Below, piece after piece: positions 18,452 to 21,620 of a stretch of DNA of 35,717 nucleotides; position 1 is the stretch's first letter; each line of letters opens with the position of its first letter. Made by a program: the position numbers and the translations under genes. The DNA is taken from contig CALWVQ010000011.1 in assembly GCA_944385025.1 (NCBI GenBank), forward strand, positions 1 through 35,717. Reading direction: 5' to 3'. The notes beneath the pieces were generated by a model. The model was not told the DNA's origin. It was given only the letters and a program-made list of their open reading frames with translations, and searched no databases. The stretch is from an uncultured Eubacterium sp. Lineage in GTDB: Bacteria > Bacillota > Clostridia > Oscillospirales > Acutalibacteraceae.

Positions 18452-19156
18452 TTATTTACTAACAGCCTTGTCGTGTATTCTTCTTGCAAGATAAACGAAA
18501 GGCGTGTCAATCAAGCTTGTAAAGATGAAGATAACATAGCTTGAAATGAATATTGAGATAAGTGTTTTTCCGTCGTACACGCCCCAAAAAGCAAACAGGG
18601 TGAACAAAAGAGTATTTAAAATCTGGCTGATAAGTGTTGAACCGTTATTTCTAAGCCACAGGAAACGGCGCTTATTTCCACATTTTTTCTCTGTAAATGC
18701 CCACCACTTATGATAAAGCCACACGTCAAAGAGCTGACTGATTGCATATACCACAAGGGAAGAAATAATCATTCTCGGTGTGTTTGAGAACACAGTTTTA
18801 ATTGCTGAAAACAGCTCAAGATTACTGTCACTGGGAATATAAACAAGCCAGCTTTGAGTGAGAAGCAGGAAGAAAAGAGAAGAGAAAATACCAAGCCATA
18901 CTGCCTTGTTTGCCTCTTTTTTGCCCTCGCACTCGCTTAAAATATCGGTGATAAGAAATGTTGCGGCAAAAAGCACGTTGCCCAAGGTTTGCTCCATACC
19001 GAAAGCGTTTATAAGTATTGTTGCCTCAACGTTTGCCAAAATCGTTGCTATAACGGAAACACAGTAAAGTCCTGTTTTGCCGAAAAATTTGTAAGAAAGA
19101 AGTGTTGCTCCGAAAATAAGAGCAACAGAGCCTACTAAAAGTAATTCATTAATCAT
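18452..19156 (-). CDS. YhhQ/VUT-family queuosine-precursor transporter
   Basis: A membrane protein of about 234 residues with six or seven helices. It shows the family's conserved blocks: LFAATFLITDILSECEGKKEANKAVW in the first half, then VYAISQLFDVWLYHK, WLRNNGSTLISQILNTLLF and SLIDTPFVYLARRI. E. coli YhhQ imports preQ0 and preQ1; some relatives take up queuine. I prefer the ATG at 19156 (AGGTG six bases upstream) to the GTG at 19165. The gene starts one base after the radical SAM gene stops. Substrate is inferred from the family and the neighbour. Confidence 0.88.
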   Translation of the reverse strand: MINELLLVGSVALIFGATLLSYKFFGKTGLYCVSVIATILANVEATILINAFGMEQTLGNVLFAATFLITDILSECEGKKEANKAVWLGIFSSLFFLLLTQSWLVYIPSDSNLELFSAIKTVFSNTPRMIISSLVVYAISQLFDVWLYHKWWAFTEKKCGNKRRFLWLRNNGSTLISQILNTLLFTLFAFWGVYDGKTLISIFISSYVIFIFTSLIDTPFVYLARRIHDKAVSK

Positions 19157-19157
19157 A

Positions 19158-19853
19158 TCAGTCACCTACTCCGAAATCAGTATTGTTTATAAGAATATCT
19201 ACTCTGTTGTTATCCTTATAATCGGGATAAATGCAGTTCAAAAACAAATCTATAACCTCTTTATCAGGCTTTACGTTTGTTTCGTTTTCACACATAACAT
19301 TGAGACAAATGCGCTCAAAATATTTAAGCCCCAGCTCAATATCTGTTTTCATTGACTCAACTGTTTGACCCTTTATGCCGAAAAGAAAATTTGCCTCATC
19401 AAAATTTTTGCTGATAATTTCAGGCTCTCTTACCTTAATGCCTTTATTAAGCACATTTTCTCTGAAATCATAGTCAAAGGTTTCAAGACCTAATTTCATT
19501 TTTAAATCGAAGTCCTCAAACTCTTTTCGCAGTTCTTTAATTTTACTGTCAAAAAGATAGTGGCTTTCAAAATGAATTGTCTTTATTCCCTTATCTTTGC
19601 AAATTTCTTTTATAAGATTTAAAGTGCCGTCGTCCAGTTCAAAAACAGAACCGCTGTTAATTACCTCCAAATTCTTATAAATGCCTGTAAGTTGTGAAAG
19701 AACGCTTTTATTAAGCAAAAAGTTTTCACTTTCATCTTCACAGCAGTCGGTGTGATAGTCGCAAAAGGTGCATTTTTTATAAACGCAGCCTTTACCTCGA
19801 AGAAGCACTATCTCACGAGGATTTTTTTCTTTAATTATACTGTACCTTTCCAT
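19158..19853 (-). CDS. Small radical SAM protein, candidate queuine lyase (QueL-like)
   Basis: A 231-residue protein with an N-terminal cysteine cluster, CVYKKCTFC (residues 23-31). This is spaced CX4CX2C rather than the usual radical SAM CX3CX2C. Further parts suit a radical SAM barrel: EVINSGSVFELD, KTIHFESHYLF, MKLGLETFD and FLFGIKGQT. Clostridia of the gut have a small radical SAM enzyme, QueL, that regenerates preQ1 from queuine. The adjacent YhhQ-type transporter and the leader RNA make that role the best guess; sequence alone does not prove it. The ATG follows a terminator by five bases and has no Shine-Dalgarno next to it. No other in-frame start exists between it and an upstream TAG. 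Confidence 0.72.
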   Translation of the reverse strand: MERYSIIKEKNPREIVLLRGKGCVYKKCTFCDYHTDCCEDESENFLLNKSVLSQLTGIYKNLEVINSGSVFELDDGTLNLIKEICKDKGIKTIHFESHYLFDSKIKELRKEFEDFDLKMKLGLETFDYDFRENVLNKGIKVREPEIISKNFDEANFLFGIKGQTVESMKTDIELGLKYFERICLNVMCENETNVKPDKEVIDLFLNCIYPDYKDNNRVDILINNTDFGVGD

Positions 19854-19858
19854 AAAAC

Positions 19859-19882
19859 AAAAAAAGCGCCCGCTACGGACGC
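19859..19882 (-). terminator. Attenuator-type terminator in the leader of the radical SAM gene
   Basis: A 6-bp GC-rich stem (GCGTCC / GGGCGC with one T-G pair, loop GTAGC) is followed by seven Ts and ends only five bases before the start codon. Since it lies between the promoter and the gene, it most likely works as a conditional terminator. Confidence 0.8.
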
Positions 19883-19900
19883 AATACGGCTAAAGCCTTT

Positions 19901-19968
19901 CCTCCATAGTTTTGATTTCAGATAACCTATCGGCATCTGACGGCAGGATGGTTTCGAACTGCCGAAAT
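19901..19968 (-). ncRNA. Structured leader RNA, candidate queuosine-precursor riboswitch (class not assigned)
   Basis: The transcript starts right at this element. Hairpin A is CGGCAG (19959-19964) / CTGCCG (19941-19946) with a 12-base loop. Hairpin B is TCAGAT (19935-19940) / ATCTGA (19918-19923) with loop GCCGATAGGTT. ATAG in loop B can pair with CTAT (19906-19909) downstream across an A-rich linker (AATCAAAA), giving an H-type pseudoknot like those of preQ1 aptamers. A GGAGG (19901-19905) follows at once. AACC of loop A could also kiss GGTT of loop B. The downstream genes look like queuosine salvage, so preQ1 or queuine is the likely ligand. I could not match a known class with certainty; preQ1-III, reported mainly from Ruminococcaceae, is the first to test. 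Confidence 0.55.
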
Positions 19969-19970
19969 GT

Positions 19971-19998
19971 ATTATATCACACCTACTAAAATAGTCAA
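19971..19998 (-). promoter_or_regulatory. Promoter of the queuosine salvage unit
   Basis: TTGACT (19993-19998), 16 bases, then a perfect TATAAT (19971-19976) on the minus strand. It lies 13 bases beyond the stop of the ylbJ-like gene and places the RNA 5' end at the base of the structured leader. Confidence 0.8.
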
Positions 19999-20011: not shown

Positions 20012-21034
20012 TTAACGGGACGCAATTATTTTAGAGCGCAAATCACCTATCAGCACAAAACAGCCCCCTATCATCAGCACGGACAAAAGAACGTTTACGC
20101 TGTAAAACTGCGCCACGGTACTGCTGGTGTTTGAAAAAACATACTCCTCCACAGGAAAAATCAAAACAAGCAGTTTTGCATAACAAAAGGACAAAACAGC
20201 GTTGATAACTCTAAACAGAAGAAAATCAAAGTAACTCATACCTGCCTTTAAAATCACGGGCAAAAGCTGAAGGTGGATACAAACTCCCCCGAAAGAAAGC
20301 AAAGCGCATAAAATGGGAATGGGTATTTTGTCGCCTGTGCAGACGCCGTTTGTTATTTCCATGAGCGGCAAAAGTCTTTGCGGAATGTGAAAAACGCCGT
20401 TTAAAGCAGAAAAAAGCACAATATAGGCAGTAATATTAAGCACTGCATTAACTGACGACGATGTTGCACTGTTTAGCGCATCGCCAAGGCTTACACTTTC
20501 GTTATAAGAATAAAAGCAATCCTGCTCCTTTCTGTTTTTAAAAGAGTGGCAAATGCCAACTGTTAAGGCAGAAAGCACGTTTGAAAAAAATAAAATTACG
20601 CCCGTTTTTGTACTGCCGTAAACGGCGCTTCCCACAGCGGTTATAATAAAGCCGCATCCGCCGCACATATTAAATCGCAAAAGACAGCGTGCCTGCTTTT
20701 TGTCAATATTGTCACTTTCAAGAAGCTGAAGAGTCATCAGCGCACCTGTGGGATAACCGCCGATAAGCCCGAAAAGCACGGCGGGAAATGTAATTCGCGG
20801 CAGGCGAAAAAGCTTTTGACTAATGACTCCCAAGGCTTTTGAAAGCACATCACAGCAGGGACTTTTCATAATAAAGCTGAAAATTATCAGCAAGGGCAAA
20901 AGGCTTGGAATAACGGTATTCTGTGCCAAAGCAAGTCCCTCAAGAGCGCCGTTTTTGGCATACGGAGAAAAAACTATCAATATACCGCCCAAAGCAGTCA
21001 TAACTATAAGCAAAACATAATTTTTTATTTTCAT
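20012..21034 (-). CDS. YlbJ-like sporulation integral membrane protein
   Basis: A polytopic protein of about 340 residues with roughly eight helices. Conserved YlbJ-type features are TVIPSLLPLLIIFSFIM, the FGLIGGYPTGALMTLQLLES block, KKQARCLLRFNMCGGCGFIITAVG, and a second half with repeated glycine-containing helices. Members of this group (nucleoside-recognition/Gate fold) are needed for spore formation in Bacillus. I chose the ATG at 21034, preceded by AGGTGGT; the longer frame to 21067 starts with TTG and has no such site. No clear promoter is visible, so some transcript may come through the trmL terminator. Confidence 0.72.
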   Translation of the reverse strand: MKIKNYVLLIVMTALGGILIVFSPYAKNGALEGLALAQNTVIPSLLPLLIIFSFIMKSPCCDVLSKALGVISQKLFRLPRITFPAVLFGLIGGYPTGALMTLQLLESDNIDKKQARCLLRFNMCGGCGFIITAVGSAVYGSTKTGVILFFSNVLSALTVGICHSFKNRKEQDCFYSYNESVSLGDALNSATSSSVNAVLNITAYIVLFSALNGVFHIPQRLLPLMEITNGVCTGDKIPIPILCALLSFGGVCIHLQLLPVILKAGMSYFDFLLFRVINAVLSFCYAKLLVLIFPVEEYVFSNTSSTVAQFYSVNVLLSVLMIGGCFVLIGDLRSKIIASR

Positions 21035-21084
21035 ACTACCACCTGTTATAGAATAATATGAAAGCAAAAAAACAATTATAAATA

Positions 21085-21109
21085 AAGGCGGTGAAAAACA
21101 CCGCCTTTT
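21085..21109 (-). terminator. Terminator of the dusB-nagA-trmL operon
   Basis: A 10-bp stem (AAAGGCGGTG / CACCGCCTTT) with a five-base loop and an AT-rich tail, 10 bases past the trmL stop. The T-tract on the minus strand is interrupted. Confidence 0.8.
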
Positions 21110-21119
21110 AAAACTAATA

Positions 21120-21620
21120 TTACCAATCGTATTTAGTTAATTTTCCTTTTTGTGACAGTTCAGGATAACCCCACTGCCTTAAAACCTCGTAAGCCCCCAC
21201 GCAAACAGCGTTTGAAAGATTAAGACTGCGGATAATACCTCTCATCGGCAGTCTTACGCATCTGTCGTGATTGTCTTTTAAAAGTTCTTCGGGAAGCCCC
21301 TTTGTTTCCTTACCGAAAACAAGAAAGGCGTTGTTCTTATACTCCATATCGCTATGGGTAATCTCCGCCTTGGTAGTAAAGAAATAAAATTCAGCGCCCT
21401 TGTTTATTTCAAGAAAATCATCAAGGCTGTCATAATATGTAATATCAAGCTTATCCCAGTAGTCAAGACCCGCTCTTCTTACCTGCTTGTCGGTAATCTG
21501 AAACCCCATAGGACCTACAAGATGAAGTCTTGCGCCTGTTGCGGCACAGGTTCTGGCAATATTGCCTGTATTTTGGGGAATTTCAGGCTCAATAAGGGCG
21601 ATATTAAGCACGTGTTCCAT
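21120..21620 (-). CDS. trmL: tRNA (cytidine(34)-2'-O)-methyltransferase TrmL
   Basis: The 166-residue SPOUT methyltransferase methylates the ribose of the wobble base of tRNA-Leu species. Seen here: the N-terminal IALIEPEIPQNTGNIARTCAATGARLHLVGPMGF, FGKETKGLPEELL, and the knot region RLPMRGIIRSLNLSNAVCVGAYEVLRQ with the SAM-binding Leu-Asn-Leu-Ser-Asn. The length is exactly that of the family. It overlaps the nagA end by 17 bases. Confidence 0.93.
   Translation of the reverse strand: MEHVLNIALIEPEIPQNTGNIARTCAATGARLHLVGPMGFQITDKQVRRAGLDYWDKLDITYYDSLDDFLEINKGAEFYFFTTKAEITHSDMEYKNNAFLVFGKETKGLPEELLKDNHDRCVRLPMRGIIRSLNLSNAVCVGAYEVLRQWGYPELSQKGKLTKYDW

Follow-up and report, generated by a model that had tools for sequence, protein, structure and literature searches.

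The leader that precedes a queuine lyase gene (queL) in the window, the whole 35,717-nucleotide stretch of uncultured Eubacterium sp. DNA analyzed here, is very probably a transcription-attenuating preQ1-I type I riboswitch whose P1 and A-rich strand are separated by an inserted hairpin (P3). It lies on the minus strand, and runs from a promoter at 19998-19971 through to the queL start codon at 19853 (Table 1). We refer to it as a variant because the inserted hairpin, which carries compensatory changes among relatives, departs from the simple H-type pseudoknot. An earlier, sequence-only reading of this DNA had proposed a self-contained leader with a promoter, a preQ1-type aptamer, and an attenuator, a description borne out by the parts found and by the type I pocket bases; the promoter, the two perfect hairpins, and the terminator it named are all present. 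From the promoter spacing, transcription would start near 19964, the first base of P1.

Table 1. Features of the leader and of the genes that follow it (positions in the window).
Feature	Position	Strand	Basis
Sigma-70-type promoter, TTGACT (19998-19993), 16-nt spacer, TATAAT (19976-19971)	19971..19998	-	11/12 matches, TG before -10
Predicted aptamer P1, CGGCAG (19964-19959) / CTGCCG (19946-19941), 12-nt loop UUCGAAACCAUC (19958-19947)	19941..19964	-	perfect 6-bp stem
Inserted hairpin P3, outer stem TCAGAT/ATCTGA, inner CC/GG, apical GAUA (19931-19928)	19918..19940	-	perfect 6-bp outer stem
A-rich strand L3, AATCAAAA	19910..19917	-	sequence
3' tail CUAUGGAGG, predicted pocket C31 U32 A33 and P2; CUAUGGA (19909-19903) doubles as candidate antiterminator 5' strand	19901..19909	-	sequence, folding
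Small hairpin GGC-UUUA-GCC, inside the candidate antiterminator	19888..19897	-	folding
Intrinsic terminator GCGTCCG-TAG-CGGGCGC, seven T	19859..19882	-	7 pairs, 6 G-C
queL, 231-aa radical SAM queuine lyase	19158..19853	-	PDB 6p78 'Queuine lyase', E 2.8e-54 over 1-231; TIGR01210 45.4 bits, below cut-off 212.15
VUT/YhhQ-family queuosine-precursor transporter, 237 aa, 8-base overlap with queL	18452..19165	-	TIGR00697 164.6 bits (cut-off 50.95); PF02592

In type I of class I, by definition, UU tops the 5' strand of P1, UC immediately precedes its 3' strand, and the 3' tail contains a conserved C (PMC11625349). The key pocket bases are U6, U7, U16, C17, A30, and C31, with a ceiling of C8-A12-U32 and G9-A33 above it (PMC8752633). 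In type I numbering, the P1 loop UUCGAAACCAUC reads U6 U7 C8 G9 A10 A11 A12 C13 C14 A15 U16 C17, and thus has the UU...UC of type I in a loop of the same length, 12 nt. The stretch that follows the second hairpin (19917-19901) reads AAUCAAAACUAUGGAGG, and its AAAACUA at 19913-19907 supplies A30, C31, U32, and A33. The window therefore holds C8, G9, A12, U32, and A33 of the ceiling and the layer above, and the pocket bases U6, U7, C8, G9, A11, A12, U16, C17, A28-A30, C31, U32, and A33 are all found. A C10-G34 pair, put forward as a hypothesis in the structure paper and not as a consensus feature (PMC8752633), is absent from the window, which has A10. The first hairpin had earlier been regarded as an extra element that did not fit preQ1-I; it is instead the one that carries the type I pocket bases, and hence the preQ1-I aptamer, while the second hairpin is the insertion.

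None of the preQ1 models of Rfam matches the window: RF00522 (preQ1-I) gives no match to the element at E ≤ 10, and preQ1-II and preQ1-III give none at E ≤ 10 either to the window stretch or to leaders L001-L012. The hairpin probably accounts for the lack of a preQ1-I match by interrupting the model. Three of the twelve core-bearing leaders described below are insert-free (L010-L012), and in two of these RF00522 has a sub-threshold match at the core (L012, 27.3 bits, E 8.5e-4 on 261 nt; L010, 21.9 bits). Wherever RF00522 and our own model coincide, the relatives score 21.9-31.6 bits, all under the gathering score of 39 bits, which is an operational threshold and not a structural feature. Of the earlier suggestions (preQ1-III, a variant, or an undescribed class), preQ1-III and a new class are disfavored by the missing preQ1-II/III matches together with the sub-threshold preQ1-I matches in insert-free relatives. 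Other Rfam matches, to HYMAI and SNORA47 in the window and to mir-3913, U7, and SmY in the leaders of relatives, were taken as chance.

QueL homologs were found in 26 of the 200 genomes of the family that were searched, and in 12 of the 26 leaders inspected the same core occurs, CAGTTCGNRACCATCCTG followed by AAAACTA. A model built from these twelve (R1) matches 153 of 398 family genomes, in 66 of 135 genera, and 133 of 394 genomes of the order (E ≤ 0.001 throughout; the E-values are rough, and the counts include weak matches). On the same 398 genomes, RF00522 matches 19 at E ≤ 0.001, five of them over its cut-off. The 14 genomes below the cut-off (27.8-31.6 bits) are matched at places that R1 lists too, one of them, at 31.5 bits (G341), being an element with the insert (L195), while the five over it are matched at places absent from the R1 list. 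The two genome searches were run with stricter filters, which lose weak matches. Since RF00522 passes its threshold in 5 of the 398 genomes vs. 153 matched by R1, and at other places, the annotation of queuosine-salvage regulation is probably incomplete for these Clostridia. At least 120 stretches came from a pattern scan of named species.

The comparisons that follow use 182 distinct elements among the matches listed, which are 222 loci less 19 duplicates and 21 loci unfit for the regular expression (L141, L201, L205-L208, L211-L213, L215, L216, L218-L221, L224, L225, and L227-L230; 20 of the 21 are R1 matches, mostly weak). The UU...UC is present in 182/182, a count that is partly circular, as most positions are fixed by the search patterns. 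Pairs 3-6 of P1 vary with compensation, and position 10 is A in 90 elements, T in 76, G in 9, and C in 7. The open reading frames (ORFs) downstream of these elements include QueL and YhhQ; ten others that were scanned comprise six QueT, three VUT, and one 2-hydroxyglutaryl-CoA dehydratase D-type protein.

This recurrence bears on the reading that the leader is a plain terminator leader, or a protein-bound attenuator, with a chance likeness to preQ1-I. The folding energy of the whole leader is indeed ordinary (z = -1.46; 19 of 200 shuffles fold equally well), and the absence of an Rfam preQ1 match to the window is what such a reading would expect; against it, the core recurs in the family and order genomes counted above, precedes queuosine genes at the loci examined, and shows compensation in P1. 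The leader stands above chance because its core is conserved among relatives, not because of its folding energy, and we consider the probability of a chance likeness to be close to negligible.

The inserted hairpin is maintained, with compensatory changes, and is probably a newly described feature of the type I leader found here. No description of a hairpin between P1 and L3 in class I was found in the literature searched, parts of which were available and outside of which lie the original type I-III consensus models. An insert of at least 20 bases between P1 and AAAACTA is present in 64 of the 182 listed elements; the other 118 keep the CUA of the tail, which is part of the search pattern. 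The family loci were picked partly for long spans, so that the 49 with an insert among 67 do not represent a frequency; in a less biased set from genome contigs, the insert is found in 15 of 115 elements among the matches listed, under a 36-base gap limit. The minimum-energy fold is a hairpin in 64/64 inserts, and 51 are more stable than 95% of their own shuffles (mean z -3.27); the 13 that are not include the QueL-linked L002, L005, L006, L100, L134, and L159. In 55 of the 64, the hairpin begins 0-1 base after P1, and in 57 it is separated from AAAACTA by 4-6 bases; insert-free linkers measure 6-7 bases in 110 of 118. These start positions and linker lengths indicate that the hairpin was slotted in at one spot, with the length of L3 nearly kept.

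We analyzed the phylogeny of 33 QueL proteins adjoining listed elements. One clade (support 100/100) has the insert in all 16 of its leaders, and none of the 17 leaders outside it does. Within the clade, the loop tip is GAUA or AAUA followed by G in 10 of the 16 leaders, and GACA in an eleventh; the tree needs four changes for this loop label, and the loop has therefore been lost or gained more than once. For the stem, nine distinct rows of the QueL clade were cropped by hand to five pairs, which were taken from each row's own fold and are thus 100% paired by construction. Changes on both sides occur in four of the five pairs (16 cells vs. 3.7 in shuffles), and the covariation score is 1.03 vs. 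0.30 in shuffles (0/500 as high), with a maximum of 0.15 for slid versions; two of the five measures failed to beat the shuffles (63/500 and 170/500 as high).

Tentatively, the insertion might mark a preQ1-I subgroup that approaches the preQ1-II/III topology. It would have arisen a single time among the QueL leaders and, perhaps, independently in QueT leaders; in the QueL clade, the [G/A]A[U/C]A-capped loop (kept in 11/16) would then serve either as a tertiary contact or as the site of a second input to regulation. Either role would explain why the loop is kept despite the turnover of letters in the stem. The resemblance to preQ1-II and preQ1-III (HLout folds, PMC11625349) would be one of topology, helices beyond the simple H-type pseudoknot; their pockets differ, and neither gives a sequence-structure match at E ≤ 10. 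In the available parts of PMC11625349, class I is drawn as a simple H-type pseudoknot, the insert-free state not being a stated criterion, and the window departs from this drawing by its hairpin. preQ1-I is one of the smallest aptamers found in nature; the window adds that it can accommodate a hairpin where P1 meets L3, and that one lineage keeps this hairpin.

A different arrangement had been proposed earlier, in which ATAG:CTAT pairing closes an H-type pseudoknot and the second hairpin and the tail make up the aptamer, perhaps of preQ1-III or of a new queuine-sensing class. The letters are there: ATAG (19930-19927) and CTAT (19909-19906) flank the 3' arm of the second hairpin and the linker AATCAAAA, and UAG is kept in the insert loop in 10 of the 16 QueL-clade leaders. 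The structure, however, is unsupported. The fourth pair forms in one of the ten leaders that share the [G/A]ATAG loop, the window alone, and 11 of the 64 inserts carry TAG at their apical loop. The CUA of the three-pair core, UAG:CUA, is invariant among relatives and part of the search pattern, and it is kept in the relatives noted above that lack the insert. The G of UAG is itself paired in all nine cropped rows (with C in eight, with U in one), and as the 3' partner of the closing pair it speaks against pairing of the UAG with the tail. An additional AACC-GGTT loop contact fares no better, as GGTT is not conserved: ATAG is followed in the ten leaders by GTT, GCG, ATT, GTA, GTA, GTC, GAT, GCG, AGA, and GTC. 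With no preQ1-II or preQ1-III match at E ≤ 10 in addition, an aptamer made of the second hairpin is highly improbable, and we retain the reading that assigns the preQ1-I aptamer to the first hairpin and the insertion to the second.

The placement of the leader ahead of queuosine-salvage genes, as proposed from the sequence, is confirmed by the matches of QueL and of the transporter (Table 1). The genome from which the window derives encodes Tgt (501.6 bits), QueA, and QueH over their cut-offs, and lacks a QueC over its cut-off (two weak matches, 29 and 20 bits vs. 150.3), in a scan that covered these four proteins; with this complement the genome looks like a preQ1 salvager. QueL converts queuine to preQ1 (PMC11130926), and in Clostridioides difficile a class I preQ1 riboswitch is reported to precede queK-qrtT-queL (PMC11477304). 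For these three reasons preQ1 is the expected ligand, and it, rather than queuine, is likely to be the natural one. The C. difficile leader resembles that of the window in being of class I and ahead of queuine-lyase salvage genes, a likeness drawn from its published description, and it differs in operon make-up (PMC11477304). Upstream of the leader in the window (20012-21067, minus strand) is a YlbJ-like membrane protein (TIGR02871, 143.1 bits, below the cut-off of 304.65).

Queuine, or another queuosine derivative, could be the natural ligand of the same fold, given that the element precedes queuine-salvage genes; the phrase 'queuine riboswitch' was found in no literature searched, such that a class of this kind could have been overlooked. 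The type I preQ1 pocket bases are nevertheless kept in the window. Two stacked preQ1 molecules are held in the type I structure, the methylamine of one touching G5 and that of the other touching its stacked partner and U16 (PMC8752633), and the cyclopentenediol of queuine would presumably have to fit at these contacts. This core is also found ahead of QueT and VUT transporters with no QueL present, and preQ1 is itself the product of QueL. Sensing of queuine, which had been raised as a possibility from the sequence, is therefore very unlikely, and preQ1 remains the ligand assumed below.

The tail of the aptamer appears to be shared with the terminator. In the window, CUAUGGA pairs with UCCGUAG (19879-19873), in the 5' arm and loop of the terminator, and in relatives the two change together: CUAGG/CCUAG (L002), CUAAGGG/CCCUUAG (L008), and CUACGG/CCGUAG (L010, L058, L088, L099). 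Across 73 leaders, a per-leader shuffle test was weak (5/73 at p ≤ 0.05; mean 5.0 vs. 4.6 expected; window p = 0.18), a likely reason being that, once G-T pairs are allowed, any A+T-rich stretch can pair. An anchored swap test, designed after this result and confined to the 33 of the 73 with a terminator and QueL or YhhQ downstream, gave 117 pairs for own tails vs. 95.9 (sd 5.5) for swapped terminators (0/2000 as high), and 57 vs. 42.5 (sd 4.4; 1/2000) in the 14 insert-bearing leaders. The full anchored match is present in 12 of the 33 leaders, and not in the other 21. In 13 leaders chosen for showing the match, a transcript cut before the 3' arm of the terminator folds with the tail on the 5' arm and loop in 13/13; in the full transcript with the tail free, the terminator is still preferred in 12/13 folds, so that the decision of the switch would be kinetic.

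Because the tail pairs with the 5' arm of the terminator, the ligand should cause termination. When preQ1 is scarce, CUAUGGA would pair with UCCGUAG, and the polymerase would read on into queL and the transporter gene. When it is plentiful, preQ1 would bind between P1 and P2, holding the tail in the pocket and P2; the terminator could then form, and transcription would stop. Should the window's RNA follow the crystal structure of type I, two stacked preQ1 would be bound; known type I RNAs bind preQ1 cooperatively, at 32-53 nM and with about two molecules per RNA (PMC8752633). P3 would most likely stack under P1 and leave the pocket unchanged, the H-type pseudoknot gaining a hairpin in its loop. 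Such a circuit would amount to end-product feedback: QueL turns queuine into preQ1, which Tgt, QueA, and QueH convert to tRNA queuosine.

The type I riboswitch of Carnobacterium antarcticus (PMC8752633; RF00522) shares with the window P1, the 12-nt UU...UC loop, the A-rich L3, the CUA tail, and queuosine genes downstream; the window differs in having P3 between P1 and L3, in lacking an RF00522 match, and in using a transcription terminator. The type I representatives in Table 1 of PMC11625349 act by indirect occlusion of the Shine-Dalgarno sequence; the leader described here adds to type I a switch in which tail and terminator covary. Attenuation by a terminator is listed in that table for the type II riboswitch of Bacillus subtilis, in which the 3' strand of P1 follows AC instead of UC (PMC11625349). 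In many insert-free relatives, the gene starts 10-16 bases after CUA, which suggests translational control in these.

The window has no Shine-Dalgarno-like sequence directly 5' of the queL ATG (19865-19853, TTTTTTTGTTTTATG), as is also the case, by eye, for several relatives in the QueL clade; the GGAGG of the tail lies approximately 50 bases upstream of the ATG, 5' of the terminator. The D-type protein mentioned above (332 aa; L084:3137-4132, plus strand) follows an insert-free preQ1-I-type element, has a double-cubane-like annotation (PF06050; NF040772 below cut-off), and may be an unrecognized queuosine-related gene; an ORF of the same length is downstream of the element in L174, the protein scan having covered L084 only. 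The leaders of four distant QueL homologs (L016, L021, L025, L026) resemble preQ1-I by eye, with a stem-loop, an A-rich tail, and other P2 pairs, and no preQ1 model of Rfam matches them at E ≤ 1. The end of a contig (L026:3508-3609) carries a long inverted repeat, almost perfect, that gives rise to a false microRNA match. Finally, two R1 matches occur approximately 1 kb apart on a single contig (G502:C21:20010-20058 and 21086-21134).
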